A stretch of 64,000 bases of DNA from Ancylobacter radicis. GTDB lineage: Bacteria > Pseudomonadota > Alphaproteobacteria > Rhizobiales > Xanthobacteraceae. A program made the position numbers and the translations under genes. Shown here in pieces: positions 7,999 to 22,570 of this stretch (positions within the stretch are counted from its first letter, which is position 1; every line of letters begins with the position of its first letter). The notes beneath the pieces are model-generated. The model did not search any database, was not told the DNA's origin, and saw only the letters and a program-made list of their open reading frames with translations. The stretch is taken from NCBI RefSeq assembly GCF_018449475.1, contig NZ_JAHCQH010000015.1:434001-498000 (forward strand). Direction: 5' to 3'.

Positions 7999-8415
7999 GC
8001 GGTGCCTCCTGACGACGGGAGCCTTCCGAAGGCTCCCCGCACCCGCTTACGCCATCCCATCGACCACGGTCAAATGCTCCATAGTATAGGCACGCCCAAC
8101 GGCACCAAAATACGCTTTTATATTATAAAAATTCAAGACTAAACACGTCAGATCAAACCGTTCACACGGACAACGAATGAAGCTGCCAGGGTCAATTTTA
8201 AGCCCCTCGGGATCTTCACGCATCATGCTCCGCAAGAGATTGCCGGTCCGCATACCTATGTATGTCCAGCGCATATGGGCAGATCATTTATCTGAAGCCT
8301 GACCTCGACGTTAAATCCCGTCGGGTGATCCGGCGTTTTTCTCCAATGCGGCGGCTCCCAACCGGCCAATTCTGCAATGGCCGGCCTCTCGAGCTTCTCG
8401 CGACAGGAGACCGCC
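7999..8415. other. Intergenic region with an unusually AT-rich core
   Basis: About 417 bp between the divergent fhuC-like and fdhF-like genes. The part from roughly 8090 to 8160 is far more AT-rich than the surroundings. A 75-codon minus-strand frame (8047-8274) crosses it but has no recognisable family and poor codon character, so I do not call it. A short inverted repeat (CCGGCCA at 8362-8368, TGGCCGG at 8378-8384) lies in the fdhF leader. The region presumably carries the promoters for both flanking genes; no clear -35/-10 pair was assigned. Confidence 0.4.
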
Positions 8416-10716
8416 ATGGGCATCGTCAAGACCATCCGCCCCTATCACGAGCCAGCCGGCGGCTGGGGGGCGCTCAAGGCGATGGGCACGGCCCTCGCCG
8501 AGCAGGACATTGCCATTTCCGGCATGGCCACCTTGTCGCGCATGAACCAGCACGGCGGGTTCGATTGCCCCGGCTGCGGCTGGGCCGACCCGAAGAATCC
8601 CTCGCCATTCGAGTATTGCGAGAATGGCGGCAAGGCGGTGGCCTGGGAGGCCACGACGAAACGGTGCACGCCGGAGTTCTTCGCCTCCTTCACGGTGAGC
8701 GAGCTTGAAGCCTTCACCGATTTCGAGCTGGAGATGCAGGGACGGCTGACGCACCCGATGCGTTACGACTCCTACAGCGACCGCTATGTGCCGGTGAGCT
8801 GGGAGGAAGCCTTCGCCATCGTGGCGCGGCATCTCAACGTGCTGCCCAATCCCAATATGGCGGACTTCTACACTTCGGGCCGCGCCTCCAATGAGGCCGC
8901 TTTCCTCTACCAGCTGTTCGCCCGCGAATACGGCACCAACAATTTCCCCGACTGCTCCAACATGTGCCACGAGGCCACCAGCGTCGGGCTGCCGCAGTCG
9001 CTCGGCGTCGGCAAGGGCACGGTGCTGCTGGAGGATTTCGAGAAGGCCGACTGCATCTTCATCTTCGGTCAGAACCCCGGCACCAATTCGCCGCGGATGA
9101 TGACGGATTTGCGCAACGCCTCGCGGCGCGGTGCCACCATCATGTCGTTCAACCCGTTCCGCGAGCGGGCACTGGAACGTTTCCAGGCCCCGCAGAACCC
9201 GGTGGAGATGGCGACGCTCACCTCCACGCCGATCTCCTCGCGCCTGTTTCAGGTCAAGGTCGGCGGCGATGTCGCGCTCATCAAGGGTATCATGAAGCTG
9301 ATGGTCGAGGCTGATGAGGCGTCCCGTCGCGACGGGGGCGCCCCGGTACTCGACTGGGACTTCATCCACGGCCACACGGCGGGCGTTGAGGCGCTGATCG
9401 CCGATCTGAAGGCGACGCAGTGGGCCGATATCGAGCGCAAATCCGGCATCGCGCGCGTCGATATCGCGGTCGCCGCCGACGCTTACATGAAAGCCGAGCG
9501 GGCGATCATCGTTTTCGGTATGGGCATCACCCAGCATCGCCATGGCACACAGAACGTTCAGCAGCTCGCCAACCTCGCGCTGCTGCGCGGCAATATCGGC
9601 CGCGAGGGCGCCGGCATCTGCCCGGTGCGCGGTCATTCCAACGTGCAGGGCGATCGCACTGTCGGCATCACCGAAGTTCCCAGCGACGCGCTACTCAACG
9701 CGCTTGAGGCGCGCTTCGGCTTCGCGCCTCCCCACGCGCCCGGCCACAACGTCGTCACCGCGCTGGAAGCCATGGTGCGCGGCGATGCCAAGGTCTTCAT
9801 CGGGCTGGGCGGCAATTTCTCCGCCGCCATTCCCGATTGGGAGCAGACCCAGGCGGCGATGCGCCGGCTCGACCTCACCGTTCACATCGCCACCAAGCTG
9901 AACCGCAGCCACATCGTCCATGGCCGCGAGGCGCTGATCCTGCCGTGCCTCGGCCGTACCGAGCTGGATGAGCAGGCCGGCGGCCCGCAGGCGGTGACGG
10001 TGGAAGACTCCATGTCGATGGTGCATGCCTCGCGCGGCCACAACAAGCCGGCCTCGGAGCACCTCAAGAGCGAACCCGCCATCATCGCGGGCATGGCGCG
10101 CGCAACGCTCGGCGCGCGCTCCAAGGTCGACTGGGAGAAGCTGACCGCCGACTACGCACTGATCCGCGAGGACATCGAGGCGGTGTTCCCGATCTTCCAG
10201 GGCTACAATGCCCGGATCGAGGAGCCCGGCGGCTTCCACCTCACCTCGCTCGCCCGCGAGCGGATCTGGGCTACCCCTTCCGGCAAGGCGAACCTGCTGG
10301 TCTGTGAAGGGCTCTGCGAGGATCCCAGCGTCACGGATCCCGAGGCGCTGTGGCTGACCACCGTGCGCAGCCATGACCAGTACAACACCACACTGTACTC
10401 ACTCTCCGACCGCTATCGCGGCGTCTATGGCCAGCGCGATGTGATCTTCCTCAACCCGCAGGAAATGGCAAAGCGCGGTCTGAAGGCGGATGACCGGGTC
10501 GACATCGTGACCCTGTCGCAGGACGGCATCGAGCGCGCCGTGCGCGGCTTCAAGGTGGTGCCCTACAGCTTCCCGGATGGTGGCTGCGCCGCCTACTACC
10601 CCGAGACCAACCCGCTCGTGCCGCTCTACGCGCATGACCCGCAGAGCTTCACCCCCTCGTCGAAGGCCGTGCCGGTCCGCCTCGTGAAGTCCTCCACCGT
10701 GCAGGGAGCCAACTGA
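8416..10716 (+). CDS. FdhF/YdeP family molybdopterin oxidoreductase
   Basis: A 766-residue cytoplasmic molybdopterin enzyme of the formate dehydrogenase/YdeP branch. It has an N-terminal Cys pair in DCPGCGWADP (Cys51, Cys54) that fits the Fe-S site of the YdeP group, then long molybdopterin-oxidoreductase and dinucleotide-binding domains. There is no Tat signal. I start at ATG 8416 because it has an ACAGGAGA ribosome site; an upstream in-frame ATG (8377) has none. The stop is one base before the cytochrome bd gene cioA, so the two are surely co-transcribed. The substrate is unproven: E. coli YdeP is linked to acid resistance, and formate oxidation is only inferred from the family. Confidence 0.85.
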   Translation: MGIVKTIRPYHEPAGGWGALKAMGTALAEQDIAISGMATLSRMNQHGGFDCPGCGWADPKNPSPFEYCENGGKAVAWEATTKRCTPEFFASFTVSELEAFTDFELEMQGRLTHPMRYDSYSDRYVPVSWEEAFAIVARHLNVLPNPNMADFYTSGRASNEAAFLYQLFAREYGTNNFPDCSNMCHEATSVGLPQSLGVGKGTVLLEDFEKADCIFIFGQNPGTNSPRMMTDLRNASRRGATIMSFNPFRERALERFQAPQNPVEMATLTSTPISSRLFQVKVGGDVALIKGIMKLMVEADEASRRDGGAPVLDWDFIHGHTAGVEALIADLKATQWADIERKSGIARVDIAVAADAYMKAERAIIVFGMGITQHRHGTQNVQQLANLALLRGNIGREGAGICPVRGHSNVQGDRTVGITEVPSDALLNALEARFGFAPPHAPGHNVVTALEAMVRGDAKVFIGLGGNFSAAIPDWEQTQAAMRRLDLTVHIATKLNRSHIVHGREALILPCLGRTELDEQAGGPQAVTVEDSMSMVHASRGHNKPASEHLKSEPAIIAGMARATLGARSKVDWEKLTADYALIREDIEAVFPIFQGYNARIEEPGGFHLTSLARERIWATPSGKANLLVCEGLCEDPSVTDPEALWLTTVRSHDQYNTTLYSLSDRYRGVYGQRDVIFLNPQEMAKRGLKADDRVDIVTLSQDGIERAVRGFKVVPYSFPDGGCAAYYPETNPLVPLYAHDPQSFTPSSKAVPVRLVKSSTVQGAN

Positions 10717-10717
10717 C

Positions 10718-12133
10718 ATGGACGCGGTCGCCCTCTCCCGCCTGCAATTCGCCTTCACCATCGGCTTTCACATCCTGTGGCCGACTCTGACCATCGGCAC
10801 CGCCTGGTTCGTCACGGTGCTGAGCGCGCTGTGGTGGCGCACCGGTAACACGGTCTATCGCGACCTGATGCGCTTCTGGATGCGGCTGTTCGCATTGGGC
10901 TTCGGCATGGGCGTCGTCACCGGCATCGTGCTGAGCTACGAGATCGGCACCAACTGGGCCGGCTTCTCGCGCTCCGTTGCCAATGTGCTCGGGCCGCTCT
11001 TCGCCTATGAGACCATGACCGCCTTCTTCCTGGAGGCCGGCTTCATCGGCATCATGCTGTTCGGTGAGGGCCGGGTATCCAAGGGCGCGCACTTCTTCGC
11101 CTGCCTGATGGTGGCGACCGGCGCGCTGATCTCCTCCACCTGGATCATCGCCGCCAATAGCTGGATGCAGACGCCGGCCGGTGCGGTGGCGGATGCCGAG
11201 GGCATCTATCATGTGGCGAGCTGGTGGGACGTCATCTTCACCGCGTCCTTCCCGTATCGCCTCGCGCACATGGTGTGCGCCAGCTTCCTGACCTGCTCCT
11301 TCGTGATCGCCGGGGTCTCGTCCTTCCATATCTGGCGCGGCCAGCATGTCGCCGCCTCCCGCAAGGCCTTCTCCATGGCGCTGGGGCTGGCGCTCATTCT
11401 GGCGCCGCTGCAGATCTTCATCGGCGACATGCACGGCCGCAACACGATGGTCGAACAGCCGACCAAGCTCGCCGCCATGGAAGGCCTGTGGGAGACCACC
11501 AAGGGCCCCGCCATGACGGTGATCGCCTGGCCGGACATGGAAGCGCAGAAGAACCTCTTTGCCATCGAGATTCCTCATCTTGCCAGCCTGTACCTGACCC
11601 ATAGCTGGGACGGAGAGGTGCAGGGCCTCAAGGCCGTGCCGGAAGCCGACCAGCCCAATGTGCCAATCGTGTTCTTCGCCTTCCGCATCATGGCCGGCAT
11701 CGGCGTGGTTCTGCTGGCGACCGCGATCACCGGCTTCGTCCTGCGGCTGCGGGGAAAGCTATTCACTACGCGCTGGTTCCAGTTCGTCACCATGGCGACA
11801 ACCCCGCTCGGCTTCCTTGCCGTGTTGGCTGGCTGGACCGTGACCGAGGCTGGGCGGCAGCCCTGGATTATCTATGGCGCGCTTCGCACCGCCGATGCGG
11901 CGGCGCCGGTCACGGCCGGCGCGGTGACGACCAGCCTGCTCATCTTCTTCGCCGTCTACAATGTACTGCTGCTGGCCTTCGTCTGGTTTGCCGGGCGCGT
12001 CGCTCTGAAGGGGCCGATCGACAGCTCGCCGCCGACCCGTGAGCGCCCCGGTATCGAGCGCAGCACGCTCGACGCCTTTGCCACGTCCCCCATCCCGTCG
12101 CCCGCGCGCGGCATCGAACAAGCGAGGGCCTGA
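10718..12133 (+). CDS. cioA: Cytochrome bd ubiquinol oxidase subunit I, CioA type
   Basis: Haem-carrying subunit of a bd-type terminal oxidase in the inner membrane; it oxidises ubiquinol and reduces oxygen. The 471-residue length and short Q-loop fit the cyanide-insensitive CioA branch. Expected haem ligands are visible: His18 (GFHILW), His184 (RLAHMV) and Met325 (FRIMAG), together with acidic Glu98 and Glu106 and the GRQPW motif. The start lies one base after the fdhF stop and cioB begins two bases after its own stop, giving a tight three-gene operon. Confidence 0.93.
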   Translation: MDAVALSRLQFAFTIGFHILWPTLTIGTAWFVTVLSALWWRTGNTVYRDLMRFWMRLFALGFGMGVVTGIVLSYEIGTNWAGFSRSVANVLGPLFAYETMTAFFLEAGFIGIMLFGEGRVSKGAHFFACLMVATGALISSTWIIAANSWMQTPAGAVADAEGIYHVASWWDVIFTASFPYRLAHMVCASFLTCSFVIAGVSSFHIWRGQHVAASRKAFSMALGLALILAPLQIFIGDMHGRNTMVEQPTKLAAMEGLWETTKGPAMTVIAWPDMEAQKNLFAIEIPHLASLYLTHSWDGEVQGLKAVPEADQPNVPIVFFAFRIMAGIGVVLLATAITGFVLRLRGKLFTTRWFQFVTMATTPLGFLAVLAGWTVTEAGRQPWIIYGALRTADAAAPVTAGAVTTSLLIFFAVYNVLLLAFVWFAGRVALKGPIDSSPPTRERPGIERSTLDAFATSPIPSPARGIEQARA

Positions 12134-12135
12134 CC

Positions 12136-13173
12136 ATGACCGAGCTTATGCAGGCGGACTATATCCCGCTGATCTTCGCCGCCGTCGCGGTGTTCTGCGT
12201 CACGGTCTATGTGCTGGCCGACGGGCTGGATCTGGGCGTCGGCATCCTGTTCCTCGCCGCCCCGCGCGACGCCGACCGCGACCTGATGATGGCCTCGATC
12301 GAGCCGGTATGGGACGGCAACGAGACCTGGCTGGTGATGGGCGGCACGCTGCTGTTCGCCGCCTTTCCCGCCGGCTACTACATCCTGCTGCCGGCCTTCT
12401 ATCTGCCGATCATGTTCATGCTGTTCGCGCTGATCTTCCGGGGCGTGGCATTCGGCTTCCGCCTGCAGGCGGCGCGCTTCCGTCTGGTGTGGGATATCGC
12501 CTTCTTTGCTGGCTCGGTGCTGGCGACCTTCTGCCAGGGGTTGATCCTGGGTGGGCTGATCAATGGCGTGCCGGTCGAGAACGGTATGTTTGCGGGCGGG
12601 CCGTTCAGCTTCCTCAGCCTGCTCGGCATTATGTGCGGGGCTGGCCTCGTCGGCGGCTATGCGCTGATCGGCGCGGGCTGGCTGATCTGGAAAACCGACG
12701 GCGCGACGCAGGTCTTCGCCCGCGAGATCGCCCATGCCGCGCTCATCCTCACGGGCGCGATGATGGCTCTGGTCAGCGCATGGAGTGCATGGAGTGTACC
12801 GGAAGTGGCGGCGCGCTGGTTCGCCCTTCCCAATCTGCTGATGCTCGCCCCCGTGCCGCTGGCGACGCTCGCCGTCATCGCCGCGATCTGGCGCGGCATC
12901 TGGGAGGGCGCGCAGCCCCGCACTTTCCTGCTGGCCCTGTCGCTGTTTGCGCTCGGGCTGATCGGGCTGATCGTCAGTCTCTGGCCCTATCTCGTGCCCC
13001 GCCACGTCACGGTGTGGGACGGCATGTCCGACCCGCAATCGTTGGCCTTCGTCTCGGTCGGCATCGCAGTGATCATCCCGATCGTGCTGGCCTATCAGGC
13101 CCATGCCTATTGGGTCTTCCGCGGCAAGACACGGCATGAGGCCGGCGCCTATGGCGGGAATACCGGCTCCTGA
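12136..13173 (+). CDS. cioB: Cytochrome bd ubiquinol oxidase subunit II
   Basis: A 345-residue polytopic membrane protein that pairs with CioA. It has the typical CydB/CioB opening (YVLADGLDLGVGIL) and the strongly conserved EPVWDGNETWLV stretch, followed by several further membrane spans. Length and hydropathy are normal. It is the third gene of the fdhF-cioA-cioB operon. No cydX- or cydCD-like gene follows; the next gene is a secreted hydrolase 52 bp downstream. Confidence 0.93.
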   Translation: MTELMQADYIPLIFAAVAVFCVTVYVLADGLDLGVGILFLAAPRDADRDLMMASIEPVWDGNETWLVMGGTLLFAAFPAGYYILLPAFYLPIMFMLFALIFRGVAFGFRLQAARFRLVWDIAFFAGSVLATFCQGLILGGLINGVPVENGMFAGGPFSFLSLLGIMCGAGLVGGYALIGAGWLIWKTDGATQVFAREIAHAALILTGAMMALVSAWSAWSVPEVAARWFALPNLLMLAPVPLATLAVIAAIWRGIWEGAQPRTFLLALSLFALGLIGLIVSLWPYLVPRHVTVWDGMSDPQSLAFVSVGIAVIIPIVLAYQAHAYWVFRGKTRHEAGAYGGNTGS

Positions 13174-14408: not shown

Positions 14409-15668
14409 TCACCCGACGGTGCGAACCGTCGATGACGTATCAGCCCGCGTCGGCAGCGCCAGCGTCACGAACCAGCAGATGAACAGCATCACCGCCGAAC
14501 CGATGAGGCAGGCATAGATGCCGCCGAACTGGTAGAGGAAGCCGGAGGCGAGAATGCCGATGAAGCGCCCCGCGGCGTTGGCCGCATAATAGAAGCCGAC
14601 ATCCTCCGCCGCCTTCTCCGAGCCCGCATAGGCGAGCACCAGATAGGAATGCACCGAAGAATTCACCGCGAAGGCGATACCGAACACCGCGAGCCCGACG
14701 ACCAGCACCAGGGTCGGGTCAGGCGGGGCCAGCACCAGCGCCGCAGCGATCAGCACGGGCACGACGGCCAGCGCCAGCGACCACCAGCGCGCGGCCGGCA
14801 CCTCGCGCGACAGCCCGTCGGCACTGCGGGCAACGAGCGAGGGCGCCGCCGCCTGCACCAGCCCGTAACCGATGGTCCACAGCGCCAGGAAGGCGCCGAC
14901 CATCGTGAAGGTCCAGCCATTGGCATAGAGGAACACCGGCACGCCGACAACGAACCATACGTCCCGCGCGCCGAACAGGGCGACGCGCGCGGCGGCCAGA
15001 AGATTGATGCCTTTGGACTTGGCGAACAGCTCGCGCGCGCTGCGGCTGGCCTTGGCCTTGCCCATCATCGCCGGCAGCGAGAACACCACGCCGAGCATCA
15101 CCAGGAACAGAGCGCCCGCCATCAGCCACAGCCCATAGCGGAAGCCGACGAGTTGCAGCAGCAGCCCGCCAAGGAAGAAGCCGACGCCCTTCATCGCGTT
15201 CTTCGAGCCGGTGAACCAGGCCACCCATTTGAACAGCCGGCCCTCCGCCTCGCCGGAAGCCTGCGATTCCGTGATCTTGATCGCCGACTTGGAGGCGGTC
15301 TTGGTGAGGTCCTTGGCGACGCCACACACGCCCTGTGCCAGTAGCACCCAGGTCACCAGCAGCGTGCTACCCCATTCGGGAGAGGCGGCGGACAGCAGCA
15401 GGAAGCCGGCGATCTGCGTGACCAGCCCGACGGTCAGCATGCGGGTTATGCCGTAGCGCGCCGCCAGCCAGCCACCGATGAAGTTCGCGCCGATGCCCGC
15501 CGCCTCATAGAGCAGGAACAGGAAGGCGAGCGTGAACGGCGAGTAGCCAAGCTGGAAAAAGGTGAACAGCACCAGCATGCGCAGGGCGCCATCGGTGAGG
15601 GTGAACCCCCAATAGGCCGCCGTCACGATGGCGTAGTTGCGCAGCCCGCCGGCCGATGAGCCCGCCAT
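14409..15668 (-). CDS. arsJ: Organoarsenical efflux MFS transporter ArsJ
   Basis: Major-facilitator permease of 419 residues with about 12 membrane segments. Its immediate upstream partner is an arsenic-type GAPDH, 2 bp away, which is the signature arrangement for ArsJ. In that pathway GAPDH makes the unstable 1-arseno-3-phosphoglycerate from arsenate, and ArsJ exports it, where it hydrolyses back to arsenate. The central loop TKTASKSAIKITES matches ArsJ proteins as I know them. It is the promoter-distal gene of the arsenic cluster and converges with the lipase-like gene 22 bp away. Confidence 0.88.
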   Translation of the reverse strand: MAGSSAGGLRNYAIVTAAYWGFTLTDGALRMLVLFTFFQLGYSPFTLAFLFLLYEAAGIGANFIGGWLAARYGITRMLTVGLVTQIAGFLLLSAASPEWGSTLLVTWVLLAQGVCGVAKDLTKTASKSAIKITESQASGEAEGRLFKWVAWFTGSKNAMKGVGFFLGGLLLQLVGFRYGLWLMAGALFLVMLGVVFSLPAMMGKAKASRSARELFAKSKGINLLAAARVALFGARDVWFVVGVPVFLYANGWTFTMVGAFLALWTIGYGLVQAAAPSLVARSADGLSREVPAARWWSLALAVVPVLIAAALVLAPPDPTLVLVVGLAVFGIAFAVNSSVHSYLVLAYAGSEKAAEDVGFYYAANAAGRFIGILASGFLYQFGGIYACLIGSAVMLFICWFVTLALPTRADTSSTVRTVG

Positions 15669-15670
15669 GT

Positions 15671-16714
15671 TCAGATCCCGACTTCGTTCATGTGGCAGGC
15701 GAGATCGACCATCCGGCAGGCATAACCCATCTCGTTGTCGTACCAGGCATAGACCTTGAGCAGCGTCTCATCAGTGACCATGGTCGACAGGCCGTCGACG
15801 ATCGAGGACCGGGTGTCGCGGGCATAGTCGGCGGAGACCAGCGGGCGCGGCTCGTAGCCGAGAATGCCGGCGAGCGGGCCTTCGGCGGCGATACGGTACA
15901 GCTCGTTCACCTCCTCGACCGTGGTCGGGCGCTGCATCTCGAACACCGCATCGGTGAGCGAGGCGTTGAGCACGGGCACGCGCACCGCATGGCCGTTGAG
16001 CTTGCCTTTCAGTTCCGGATAGATCAGCGCAATGGCGGTGGCGCTGCCCGTCGTAGTCGGCTGAAGCGACAGCATGGCGGAGCGGGCGCGGCGCAGATCC
16101 TTGTGGGGTGCGTCGACCACGACATTGGTATTGGTCGGGTTGTGGATCGTGGTGATCTGCCCGTGGCGGATGCCGATCGCCTCATGCACCACCTTCACCA
16201 CGGGGGCGAGGCAGTTGGTGGTGCAGGACGCCGCCGTCACGATAGGATGCACAGCCGGATCGTAGAGGTGCTCGTTGACGCCGACGACGACATTGAGGAC
16301 CGAAGGGTCCTTCACCGGCGCGGCGACGATGACCCGCTTGGCGCCGCGGTCAAGATGCCCCTGCAGGACGGCCGGGGTCAGGAACTTGCCCGTGCATTCC
16401 AGCACGACATCGACGCCCAGATCGCCCCACGGGATATCGGCCGGCGCGGCATGGGCGGAAAAGGAAATGCGCTTGCCGTCGATCATGACGGCATCTTCCC
16501 CGGCGGTCTCGATCTGAGCGCGCCAGCGGCCCTGCACGCTGTCGAACTCGAGCAGATGCGCGGTGGCCGCAGCACCGCCCTTGATCTCGTTGAAGTGGAT
16601 CACGTCGAGCCGGTTGCCGGCACGCGGATCGCTGGACTGCCGTTCGGCAGCCCCCATCGCCGCCCGCAGCGCCAGCCGCCCGATCCGCCCCATGCCGCTA
16701 ATGCCGACTCTCAT
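15671..16714 (-). CDS. ArsJ-associated glyceraldehyde-3-phosphate dehydrogenase
   Basis: GAPDH-family enzyme of 347 residues, paired with ArsJ and predicted to use arsenate in place of phosphate to form 1-arseno-3-phosphoglycerate. It has the NAD-binding motif GMGRIGR at residues 7-13, the catalytic Cys164 in ASCTTNC, and a C-terminal WYDNEMGYA block. I start at ATG 16714, eight bases after a TTAGGAG ribosome site, rather than at the upstream in-frame codon 16744. Housekeeping GAPDH normally sits with glycolytic genes, so its place in the ars cluster supports the arsenic role. A Pho box lies 114 bp upstream. Confidence 0.88.
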
Positions 16715-16827
16715 CCGTCCTGCTCCTAAGGCTGCGGGGCGCAACGCAACGGCTTCATCCGAGCCGCGCCTGTCTCGTCATGGGGCGCTGCTATCCAGCG
16801 CGACACTCACCAGCCGCCGGTAACAGG

Positions 16828-16849
16828 CTTGAATGACACTTCAGTGACA
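16828..16849 (-). promoter_or_regulatory. Pho box (PhoB site) upstream of gapArs-arsJ
   Basis: On the minus strand two 11-bp units lie in perfect tandem: TGTCACTGAAG (16849-16839) and TGTCATTCAAG (16838-16828). Each begins with the TGTCA core and is AT-leaning in the last half, which is the layout of a PhoB-binding Pho box. It is about 114 bp upstream of the gapArs start and oriented to activate it. The rest of the 352 bp between gapArs and the MFS gene shows no gene. Confidence 0.7.
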
Positions 16850-17066
16850 TTTTTCGACGCATACTCTCCGGGCAGCCTCCCCCTCCGGGAGCACAGCAAC
16901 GTGCAGACACAGCAACGACGCCGCAGGCATGCGTCGAGCACATCATCCGACTGGCACTCCAAATCGTCATTATTTCGAGACTATTCGACGCAGAGAGATT
17001 CTGCGCCGTCCCAGACGCCTTCCGCAGCTCGCGCATCCCGACTGGGCGAGCGAGTCGGTGGGAGCC

Positions 17067-18323
17067 TCAGTTTGCGGAGAGTGCGGCCTGGCGTGACAGG
17101 AAAGCGGCGAGCCAGAAGCCGCACGCCAGCAGCAGCGTCAGCACGATGATGGCGAGCAGCACGCCATCATAGGAGCCCGACATCGACCAGATCACCGCCG
17201 CGCCCAGCGGCGCCACCGCGCGCGAAATCGTGCTGGGCGCCGACATGGCTCCGTTCACCGCGCCATAGGCCTCGCGGGTGAGCATTTCCGGCACGGACAG
17301 GCCACGCACGATGGTGGTGATGCCGTTCGCCGCACCGTAGAGCAGCGCCACGACGGCGATCAGCAGGAAGCTTGGTGGCAGCACATCGAGCGCGACCAGC
17401 GCCAGCGGGAACACCGCCACCGTGACCGAGCCGATCACCCGCACCGGCGCGCGCGGCGCGAACAGCCAGATGGCGATGCGTCCCGCCACCTGCGCCGGGC
17501 CGATCAGCGTCATGGCCGCGACCACGGAAGATACCTCGAACCCCTTCTCCACCAGCAGGGGATAGAGATGGAAGGTGAACGCCGAGAACGCCGCCGAATA
17601 GGCGGTGAAAGCCACCGCCAGCGCCCAGAACACCGGCTGGCGCGCCGCCCAGGCCACCGCTGCCCTCCCGCTCAGCGCCGGCAGGCCGCTTGAACCGCGA
17701 TGCATCGGCGCATCGGCGGCGGGGTCGATCACCGACCAATAGCAGCCGGCACAAATCAGGATGTTGATCGCCGCCAGCACCATCAGCGCGTCGCGCCAGC
17801 CAATCGTATCGAGCAGCACCTGCACCAGAGGGATGAACACGGTCGAGGCGAAGCCGCCCCATAATGTCAGGGCTGTGATCCCGGCCCGCGCATGGGAGGG
17901 ACCGGAGCGGCGGGCGATGACGGCAAAGGCCGGATCGTAAAGCGTCGCCGCCTGCAGCGCGCCGATGCCGGCCACCGCGACATAGAACAGCGCCATGCTC
18001 TCGGCCTGCGACCACAGCACGAGCAGCAAGCCGGCCAGCACCGAGCCAATGGTCATGATCGCGCGGCCATGGCCACGGTCGATGGCGGCGCCGATCGGAT
18101 AGGCCGCCACACCTGCCAGAGCGAGGCCGAGCGTCGCAGCACCATAAAGCACGCTTTTCGACCAGCCGAGCTCATGTCCCATAGCCTCGGCGATCAGCGG
18201 GAAACTGTAATAAAGCGAGCCCCAGGAGCAGACCTGCCCGATACCCAGGCCGGTGACGAACAGGCTGCGCGCGCCAGGCGGGCGATGTTCGCGCGCGCCG
18301 GACAGAAGGAAATTCTCGCTCAC
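17067..18323 (-). CDS. MFS transporter, ArsK-like arsenite/antimonite efflux candidate
   Basis: A 418-residue major-facilitator protein with about 12 hydrophobic spans. I chose GTG 18323 because it overlaps the arsR1 stop as GTGA; upstream in-frame sequence lies inside arsR1. Co-translation with an ArsR regulator inside an arsenic cluster suggests export of trivalent arsenicals, as described for the MFS protein ArsK of Agrobacterium. I assign this by context and general MFS character only. Alternatives include a pump for another oxyanion or a general MFS exporter. Confidence 0.65.
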   Translation of the reverse strand: MSENFLLSGAREHRPPGARSLFVTGLGIGQVCSWGSLYYSFPLIAEAMGHELGWSKSVLYGAATLGLALAGVAAYPIGAAIDRGHGRAIMTIGSVLAGLLLVLWSQAESMALFYVAVAGIGALQAATLYDPAFAVIARRSGPSHARAGITALTLWGGFASTVFIPLVQVLLDTIGWRDALMVLAAINILICAGCYWSVIDPAADAPMHRGSSGLPALSGRAAVAWAARQPVFWALAVAFTAYSAAFSAFTFHLYPLLVEKGFEVSSVVAAMTLIGPAQVAGRIAIWLFAPRAPVRVIGSVTVAVFPLALVALDVLPPSFLLIAVVALLYGAANGITTIVRGLSVPEMLTREAYGAVNGAMSAPSTISRAVAPLGAAVIWSMSGSYDGVLLAIIVLTLLLACGFWLAAFLSRQAALSAN

Positions 18324-18649
18324 GTCGATACTCCGCCGGCGGCGGCATCGGCCGTGACGCATCCCGCGTCGGCACAGCATTCGTCCGCGAGATAGCCGAT
18401 CAGGGCATTCATCGCCGGATAATGCGCGCGGCAGATCAGGGTCGTGGCGTGGCGCTCCTGCGTCACCAGCCCGGTCTCGACAAGGCGTTTCAGATGATGC
18501 GACAGCGTCGAGGCGGCGATGCCGATCCGCTCCTGCAAGCCCCCGACCGGCAGGCCGGCAGGCCCCGCCCGGACCAGCGTCCGGTAGATCTGCAGACGGG
18601 TCGGATTGCCCAGTGCTTCGAGCTGGCGAGAGGCTATTTCGAGATTCAT
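18320..18649 (-). CDS. arsR: ArsR-family arsenic-responsive repressor (arsR1)
   Basis: A 109-residue winged-helix repressor. The helix-turn-helix spans about residues 32-62 (IAASTLSHHLKRL), and a C-terminal thiol cluster Cys91-Cys92 and Cys97 (ECCADAGC) fits an As(III) or Sb(III) site. I choose ATG 18649; the in-frame ATG at 18685 would overlap the promoter. A TTGACC (18685-18680) / TTATCG (18662-18657) pair with 17-bp spacing puts the predicted transcription start at about the ATG, so the message may be leaderless. It is translationally coupled to the MFS gene downstream. Confidence 0.88.
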   Translation of the reverse strand: MNLEIASRQLEALGNPTRLQIYRTLVRAGPAGLPVGGLQERIGIAASTLSHHLKRLVETGLVTQERHATTLICRAHYPAMNALIGYLADECCADAGCVTADAAAGGVST

Positions 18650-18656
18650 GGAAATA

Positions 18657-18710
18657 CGATAAAGGCCGCTCCGGCCAACGGTCAATCCCTATTTCGACAA
18701 TTGTCGAAAT
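18657..18710 (-). promoter_or_regulatory. Promoter and palindromic ArsR operator of arsR1
   Basis: A perfect 20-bp palindrome, ATTTCGACAATTGTCGAAAT, occupies 18691-18710 in the gap between acr3 and arsR1. On the minus strand it is followed 5 bp later by a TTGACC -35 element (18685-18680), and 17 bp after that by TTATCG (18662-18657). The position is that of an autoregulatory operator for the arsR1-MFS operon. It also means this pair has its own promoter separate from the upstream ars genes. Confidence 0.65.
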
Positions 18711-21307: not shown

Positions 21308-22195
21308 TTAGGTCCCACGCGCAGCCAATGTCATCTCGGTGGCGCCTTCCATCACCGAAATATCGCTGAGGCGGGCCTTCAGGGCGGTGAGATCAAGGGT
21401 GTCCAGGGGAAGATTGACGAAGGCGGACATGCGGGCCGCGATCTGCCGATAGGTGGCCAGGAACGCGGCACGCAATTGCGCCTCGGTGCCGCCCGATGCG
21501 GTGGGATCGGCAAGACCCCAATGTGCCGTCAGCGGATGGCCGGGAAAAACCGGACAGCTTTCACCGGCGGCCGCGTCACAGACAGTGATCACGAAATCCA
21601 TCGGCTCGACGGCGCCGCCGGCGAACTCGTCCCAGCCCTTCGAACGCAGATCCTCGGTCGTGTAGCCGAGCGAGCGCAGCAGATCGAGCGCCAGCGGATG
21701 CGGCGCGCCGCGTGGGACGCTGCCCGCGGAGAAAGCACGGAAACGCCCGCGTCCCTCGCGGTTTAGCACCGCCTCCGCCATGATCGAGCGCGCCGAATTA
21801 TGCGAGCACACCAGAAGCACATTGTAGCGCCGCTCCGCCGGCTCGCCCGGTCGCAAGCGCGGAAATCCCGCCCCTTCGTCCGCCGACCTCGGCAATTCCC
21901 CAAGCAGCAGATCAAGAATCGACGCCGCCCGCCCGGCTCTGGCCGAATAGATGATCGACCGCCCTTCGCGGCGTGAGGCCACCAGTCCCGCCCGCTCCAA
22001 TTGAGCCAGATGGGTCGACATCGTGTTGTGCGGGACCGCCAGCAGGCGGGCGACATCCCCCGCATTCAACCCGAAGGGCGCGTAGCGCAGCAACAGGCGG
22101 AAGGCGTCGAGCCGGGTCGACTGGGCCAGCGCGTCGAACATCGCGACAGCATCGTCCGACAACAGCCGCTTCACATCCCTCGCCTCACCCTGCAT
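21308..22195 (-). CDS. ArsR-ArsC fusion protein
   Basis: A 295-residue two-domain protein. Residues about 13-100 form an ArsR winged helix (FDALAQSTRLDAFRLL, VPHNTMSTHLAQL). After a linker rich in Pro, Gly and Glu, residues about 124-285 form a thioredoxin-type arsenate reductase with phosphate loop Cys130-SHNSA-Arg136 and a second Cys pair in VCDAAAGESCPVF. The ArsR part has no cysteine, so As(III) sensing by a usual thiol site is unlikely in that domain. I start at ATG 22195; the longer frame to 22366 crosses the promoter. It lies upstream of arsR2-arsC, which encode the same two domains separately. Confidence 0.85.
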   Translation of the reverse strand: MQGEARDVKRLLSDDAVAMFDALAQSTRLDAFRLLLRYAPFGLNAGDVARLLAVPHNTMSTHLAQLERAGLVASRREGRSIIYSARAGRAASILDLLLGELPRSADEGAGFPRLRPGEPAERRYNVLLVCSHNSARSIMAEAVLNREGRGRFRAFSAGSVPRGAPHPLALDLLRSLGYTTEDLRSKGWDEFAGGAVEPMDFVITVCDAAAGESCPVFPGHPLTAHWGLADPTASGGTEAQLRAAFLATYRQIAARMSAFVNLPLDTLDLTALKARLSDISVMEGATEMTLAARGT

Positions 22196-22280
22196 CACGT
22201 CACCCTGCTTTCGTTTCAGCTTCCGCTCTTGAACGTCGCCCCCACCAGCGGCTCGGGGAGCGGACCGCGAGCCGGACGAG

Positions 22281-22308
22281 AAAATAACGGCGCGTGGAGC
22301 ACTCTCAA
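22281..22308 (-). promoter_or_regulatory. Predicted promoter of the ArsR-ArsC fusion gene
   Basis: On the minus strand TTGAGA (22308-22303) and TATTTT (22286-22281) are separated by 16 bp, about 85 bp upstream of the chosen start codon. The stretch 22196-22594 otherwise contains no gene I can support. No strong palindrome like those at arsR1 and arsR2 was seen here. Confidence 0.45.
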
Positions 22309-22570
22309 AGCTCGATCTGTCGGGATTAACCGACGAACCTGCAAGGACACTGTACGACGCTTCCATGACGCGGGGTCGTAACCACGCCGCTGGTTCGCCG
22401 CGCCGTGTCGTCGTTGAGAGCCCCGGTAGAAGGATTGAGCCTAACGCGCCAGAAAGTGCGGCATCGCCCCCCCAAATGGAAGCCGATCACCACGCGGGCC
22501 CGCAGCAGGACCAGATGGTAACGATTCCTGCCGGATGGCGGCCTGCGTTCTTATTTATGAAAATTCAGAA

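Follow-up and report, generated by a model that had tools for sequence, protein, structure and literature searches.

A Pho box conserved in Ancylobacter precedes the arsenate efflux genes gapArs-arsJ and points to control by phosphate starvation

The gapArs-arsJ pair of Ancylobacter radicis raises the question of which signal switches on an arsenate efflux route, that of arsenic or that of phosphate. GapArs makes 1-arseno-3-phosphoglycerate and ArsJ exports it, while arsenate enters the cell as a look-alike of phosphate, so that its uptake should be worst under phosphate starvation, and the Pst phosphate importer is leaky and does not fully exclude it. The initial annotation of the window (the whole stretch of 64,000 nucleotides analysed here) claimed two tandem TGTCA-led 11-bp units upstream of gapArs, read as a Pho box under the control of PhoB, with ArsR operators at the other ars genes.

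The gapArs-arsJ locus and its upstream region

The features on which the analysis is based are the following, in window coordinates.
14409 to 15668, minus strand: arsJ, organoarsenical efflux MFS transporter (NF033734, 518.2 bits, cut-off 400)
15671 to 16714, minus strand: gapArs, ArsJ-associated glyceraldehyde-3-phosphate dehydrogenase, 347 aa, ATG at 16714 (NF033735, 541.9 bits, cut-off 450)
16715 to 17066, minus strand: intergenic promoter region between the arsK-like gene and gapArs (sequence reading)
16817 to 16822, minus strand: putative minus-10 hexamer TACCGG (spacing of 10 nt from the second TGTCAT)
16849 to 16839 and 16838 to 16828, minus strand: Pho box, tandem 11-bp units TGTCACTGAAG and TGTCATTCAAG (sequence reading, pstS matrix, conservation)
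17067 to 18335, minus strand: arsK-like MFS transporter gene, the upstream neighbour (ArsK model 179.4 bits, below the cut-off of 400; stop at 17067, start taken as 18335, reading frame open to 18380)
18692 to 18709, no strand assigned: ArsR-type palindrome TTTCGACAATTGTCGAAA 5' of arsR_a, a perfect 18-bp palindrome

The gapArs and arsJ genes each exceed their curated cut-offs, are adjacent and lie on the same strand. The minus strand 5' of the arsK-like gene carries arsR, acr3, arsC, a second arsC-type gene, a second arsR and an arsR-arsC fusion, the last of which (21308 to 22366) joins ArsR and an LMW-phosphatase-type arsenate reductase in one reading frame of 352 aa. Just beyond the ars cluster, the plus strand at 8377 to 13173 encodes a molybdopterin oxidoreductase (Pfam PF00384 and PF01568) and, 3' of it, frames that, as judged by eye, resemble both subunits of a bd-type quinol oxidase. 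No match to aioA was found in the window genome at E 1e-50.

The two tandem units were confirmed at 16849 to 16828 on the minus strand, about 120–135 bp 5' of the gapArs ATG; the interval first given for the site, 16714 to 16849, runs from the start codon to the box, which forms its far end. The units are direct repeats of the TGTCA type at 11-bp spacing, and the box stands where a minus-35 element would lie, with 10 nt separating the second TGTCAT from TACCGG (16822 to 16817), the same spacing as in the phoA promoter of E. coli and the pstS promoters of the host genus. The hexamer TACCGG is thus placed as a putative minus-10 of gapArs; it is weak, which counts against reading the region as a PhoB promoter. 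No sigma-70-like promoter or terminator-like site was found in 16650 to 17150.

The ArsR-type operators offer a contrast to this arrangement. A search of the 320 bp upstream of gapArs for palindromes (16 or 20 bp, at most one mismatched pair) gave none for nine of the ten copies of the genus, that of the window among them, the tenth (L078) showing an imperfect palindrome at -308. The view of the initial annotation that the other ars genes carry ArsR operators held for one unit only, the palindrome before arsR_a, which also occurs in all four other loci where gapArs lies behind arsK (with two mismatches in L080); arsR_b and the arsR-arsC fusion of the window have none in the 260 bp before their assumed start codons.

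The box against chance and against the Pho regulon of the genus

The Pho regulon of the host genus was used for calibration. Matching 11-bp units precede pstS in all 30 genus genomes, with 0, 1 and 2 mismatches in 7, 13 and 10 of them, and the hexamer TAGAAC follows the second TGTCAT-type hexamer by 10 nt in 24 of 29 pstS promoters, with a similar hexamer in three more and the remaining two rows anchored one unit off; the 10-nt spacing was also read at phoA of E. coli MG1655. Exactly one PhoB over the cut-off was found in each of the 30 genomes. PhoB of the window genome scores 343 bits (cut-off 296.2) and forms a single cluster with PhoR, PstS and PhoU, the PhoR score of 325.7 falling below its cut-off of 334.2.

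The exact pattern TGTCA-N6-TGTCA has three matches in the 4,216,024 bases of the window genome, the gapArs box being one of them, and the reversed pattern has none there. With up to one mismatch allowed, the core matches 48 times in the genome against 23 for the reversed pattern, and 10-nt spacing is kept at six of the 48 sites, namely those of gapArs, pstS, a PhnD-like binding protein and an autotransporter-like gene, one site within an open reading frame and one without a clear downstream gene. In the window alone, the core at this threshold was seen once against 1.46 expected, and at least one match occurred in 71 of 100 shuffles; the bare motif within the window alone would be thin evidence. 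The gapArs box stands above chance because of the quality of its match to the pstS matrix, its place and its conservation. The PhoB weight matrix, a kind of check already proposed for this site, was built from 29 host-genus pstS promoters with the window genome excluded (two rows, L118 and L119, being anchored one unit downstream), and it placed the gapArs box first of 127,952 positions in the window, at 22.3 bits with a runner-up of 14.5. The other nine of the ten genus boxes reach a modest 3.8–14.4 bits under this matrix, because their first unit is GTCAC and not GTCAT.

Two further Pho-like sites were observed in this survey. Three tandem 11-bp Pho-like units lie 5' of a gene for a 1025-aa autotransporter-like protein in the window genome (L098, 3284 to 3310, minus strand), which is a possible new member of the Pho regulon as judged from these units. 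A Pho-like box, CGTCATGCCTCTGTCAT, without the 10-nt spacing, lies 63 bp 5' of a gene for a choice-of-anchor I family protein (L111, position 1616).

Conservation of the box in the genus, the family and beyond

A search of the family detected gapArs above the cut-off in 45 of 296 genomes. The host genus holds ten copies in 9 of its 30 genomes, the window genome included and one genome having two. The initial annotation had named a lack of the two units in relatives as evidence against its reading, and the opposite was observed in the genus, where the box is present before all ten copies, with no mismatch in six and one in four, at 85–135 bp before the start, and TA stands 10 nt after the second TGTCAT-type hexamer in every copy. 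Dinucleotide shuffles gave a mean of 0.05 of 10; they were relied on because the reversed motif (ACTGT-N6-ACTGT), found exactly in three genus copies and at up to one mismatch in six, is not an independent control in the genus, AC often preceding both units. When the genus copies were compared with the box as anchor, the majority base reached 91% on average over the 16 box columns, against 50% and 60% in the flanks.

Differential neighbourhoods were observed for the genus copies. Five (the window, L080, L082, L084 and L085) lie behind arsK, and five (L077, L078, L079, L081 and L083) are divergent from a three-gene block, aioXSR, so that the box of these arsenite oxidizers sits between gapArs-arsJ and aioXSR. 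In the L081 block the first product matches the solved AioX (6esv, E 3.7e-94) and the other two genes encode a histidine kinase and an NtrC-type regulator, in this order; L077, L078, L079 and L083 have relatives of all three genes. Six genomes have aioA, and in five of them it shares a contig with gapArs, at most about 5 kb away. One genome, G234, contains both settings with a box at each; being kept in both settings, the box is tied to gapArs rather than to the gene beside it. A second pstS shares the contig of gapArs, at a distance of 6 to 39 kb, in G264, G165, G253, G234 (two), G022 and G186, and the window genome has the core pstS only. On the aioX side of the aioX-gapArs intergenic region, the five aio-linked copies share a second conserved stretch (GGCGTTTCCTGTTTGTAGTTCTT ... 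GGAAAT in L081), possibly a promoter or operator of aioXSR.

Of the 39 gapArs copies listed for the family's other genera, 38 were examined, and the box is absent from all of them; they stand for 34 different upstream regions, repeats being recognised by identity of the last 200 bp (L046 with L047; L349 with L351, L352 and L354). The upstream comparisons as a whole leave out G379, where the match begins only at profile position 40, and G222, which is partial. Eleven of the 38 were mapped in stretches of 10–11 kb. These operons have the same two genes in the same order as the window, but ten of the eleven follow an arsR-arsC gene on the same strand, a relative of the fusion of the window, five directly and five with acr3 between and pstS ahead of the arsR-arsC gene; in the remaining one, L094, gapArs immediately follows an arsC-type gene. 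In L091–L093, L095 and L096 the order is pstS, arsR-arsC gene, acr3-gapArs-arsJ, the gene of a phosphate-binding protein thus travelling with an ArsR-led operon. Because none of the 38 copies from the other family genera has it, the Pho box on gapArs-arsJ is, on the sequences compared, genus-level wiring and no general rule for gapArs-arsJ.

A further 137 loci were screened, made up of 121 of the 124 phylum matches listed and 16 named loci, among which L155 and L157 repeat the family loci L032 and L034 of the 38. The box at up to one mismatch was detected in 11 of the 137, against a shuffle mean of 0.75 and at most 2 (20 rounds) and 4 for the reversed motif, whereas with two mismatches allowed the motif and its reversed control gave 24 hits each. 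The 11 still include L153, L257, L287 and L310: the Bosea site (L153, L358) was taken as a probable ArsR operator owing to its TGTCGA palindromes, and those of L257, L287 and L310 were taken as inverted-type sites in which the 10-nt spacing is absent. The full architecture of box and spacing was present in 4 of the 137 (shuffle mean 0.08, at most 1, 50 rounds), namely in Rubrivivax albus, where it is exact, an Oxalobacteraceae MAG, a MAG labelled Bordetella and G535. A protein tree was built from 42 loci, hand-picked among those for which the entire gene was available; in it the genus copies group together (100/98), the Rubrivivax and Bordetella-labelled copies group elsewhere (98/79) and the Oxalobacteraceae copy stands apart. 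Three changes of the box label are needed on this tree and the starred branches force at least two, gains being indistinguishable from losses.

A different association with phosphate genes was observed in Burkholderiales LSUCC0115 (L154, 4001 to 9044), where gapArs-arsJ are followed on the same strand by pstS, pstC and pstA, and a one-mismatch box, TGTCATCGATCTGACAC, lies 82 bp 5' of gapArs without the 10-nt spacing. The genes for exporting arsenate and importing phosphate may be cotranscribed there.

Proposed control by PhoB, rival readings and known systems

The earlier interpretation of PhoB control gains support at the level of sequence from the ten of ten genus boxes, the pstS-type units and spacing, and the lack of an ArsR palindrome in most copies, and phosphorylated PhoB very probably activates gapArs-arsJ in low phosphate. 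Under phosphate starvation PhoR would phosphorylate PhoB, which is encoded in a single copy adjoining pst in the window genome; phosphorylated PhoB would occupy both 11-bp units, which would stand in for a minus-35 element, and recruit RNA polymerase to the minus-10 ten bases on. GapArs and ArsJ would then be produced alongside the Pst importer, whose exclusion of arsenate is incomplete; GapArs would form 1-arseno-3-phosphoglycerate and ArsJ export it, removing arsenate without prior reduction to arsenite. PhoB binding, induction and a physiological benefit at gapArs are thereby predicted, and the benefit, export of arsenate leaked through Pst, would follow from the chemistry of GapArs and ArsJ. 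The arsR-acr3-arsK side has an ArsR-type operator, and the two routes would therefore answer to different signals.

A dual control, in which PhoB activates and the need for or response to arsenic is added by cross-talk between PhoR and AioS in genomes that have aio, or by read-through from the ArsR-controlled arsR-acr3-arsK genes, is possible but rather doubtful. It would fit the failure to find a terminator-like site between arsK and gapArs, the intergenic region common to gapArs and aioXSR in five copies, and the cross-phosphorylation of PhoR and AioS and binding of PhoB1 at aioXSR reported for Agrobacterium by a review (PMC7533571). Against it, the window genome lacks an aioA match at the threshold used, the genus copies have no ArsR-type palindrome near gapArs apart from the imperfect one of L078, and the gap between the arsK and gapArs matches measures about 930–990 bp in the four arsK-setting relatives.

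The site could also belong to another regulator, of the ArsR type or another member of the OmpR family, and be a Pho box by resemblance only, which is improbable: the OmpR-type DNA-binding family has 16 matches in the window genome, PhoB among them, TGTCA-N6-TGTCA sites are all nearly palindromic, and in the Bosea copies a similar half-site lies beside the TGTCGA palindromes, but the pstS promoters of the genus share both the units and the minus-10 spacing of gapArs and the local ArsR-type operator differs in sequence. That the box is a chance match or a functionless relic appears extremely unlikely, for the core at up to one mismatch is indeed expected more than once per window, but it has been kept in all genus copies with diverged flanks, far beyond the shuffle mean.

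The promoter resembles the PhoB promoters of E. coli phoA and of the pstS type in its two TGTCA-led 11-bp units, the 10 nt and the minus-10, and differs from them in its target, gapArs-arsJ serving arsenate detoxification and not phosphate acquisition. Among arsenic genes, aioBA of Halomonas HAL1 has a Pho box to which PhoB binds (PMC4563254), the aioXSR promoter of Agrobacterium is reported to be a target of PhoB1, with cross-talk between PhoR and AioS (PMC7533571), and a Pho-Aio link appears also in PMC7965956. These cases share with the present one a PhoB site on an arsenic gene and a low-phosphate logic, but PhoB there drives the making of arsenate, whereas the box here is on its removal. 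The gapArs gene of HAL1, directly behind arsC, has no such box within 260 bp (best 3 mismatches).

Phosphate-linked expression has also been recorded in cyanobacteria. In Nodularia (PMC9846622), gapArs rises under phosphate depletion (log2 1.57 and 2.41) and arsJ later (1.20), the authors noting that most arsenate-related genes were without clear change, and the phosphate box named there for Synechocystis has a different sequence; in PMC10504305, the legend of a figure counts gap1, an mfs gene and arsR, with phoBR and pst, among the phosphate-acquisition genes of Prochlorococcus. The likeness lies in phosphate-linked gapArs (Nodularia) and gap1/mfs (Prochlorococcus), and the difference in the other box sequence (Synechocystis) and in the arsR listed beside the genes in Nodularia and Prochlorococcus. 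That the Pho system controls arsenite oxidation, and that gapArs is linked to phosphate in cyanobacteria, was thus already known from these sources; what appears to be new is that gapArs-arsJ has a conserved Pho box here, in contrast to the ArsR-led operons of relatives. Promoter type and operon are each known, and the open-access literature searched yielded no description of the two paired and no paper that connects arsJ with a Pho box.

It is about an even chance that gapArs-arsJ has passed out of ArsR control and into the phosphate-starvation response proper, both in this genus and in some betaproteobacteria that stand apart from it on the gene tree, low phosphate alone switching it on before arsenic is sensed, as a feed-forward protection of Pst uptake. 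As the box of the arsenite oxidizers sits between gapArs-arsJ and aioXSR, one phosphate signal could couple the making of arsenate to its export, and the Pho box may help to explain why several genomes of the genus keep gapArs-arsJ, aio genes and an extra pstS close together. With a Pho box on an arsenate-specific exporter, a poison would be anticipated from a nutrient signal, and the locus provides a simple case of one operon under different regulators, ArsR or PhoB, in related genera.
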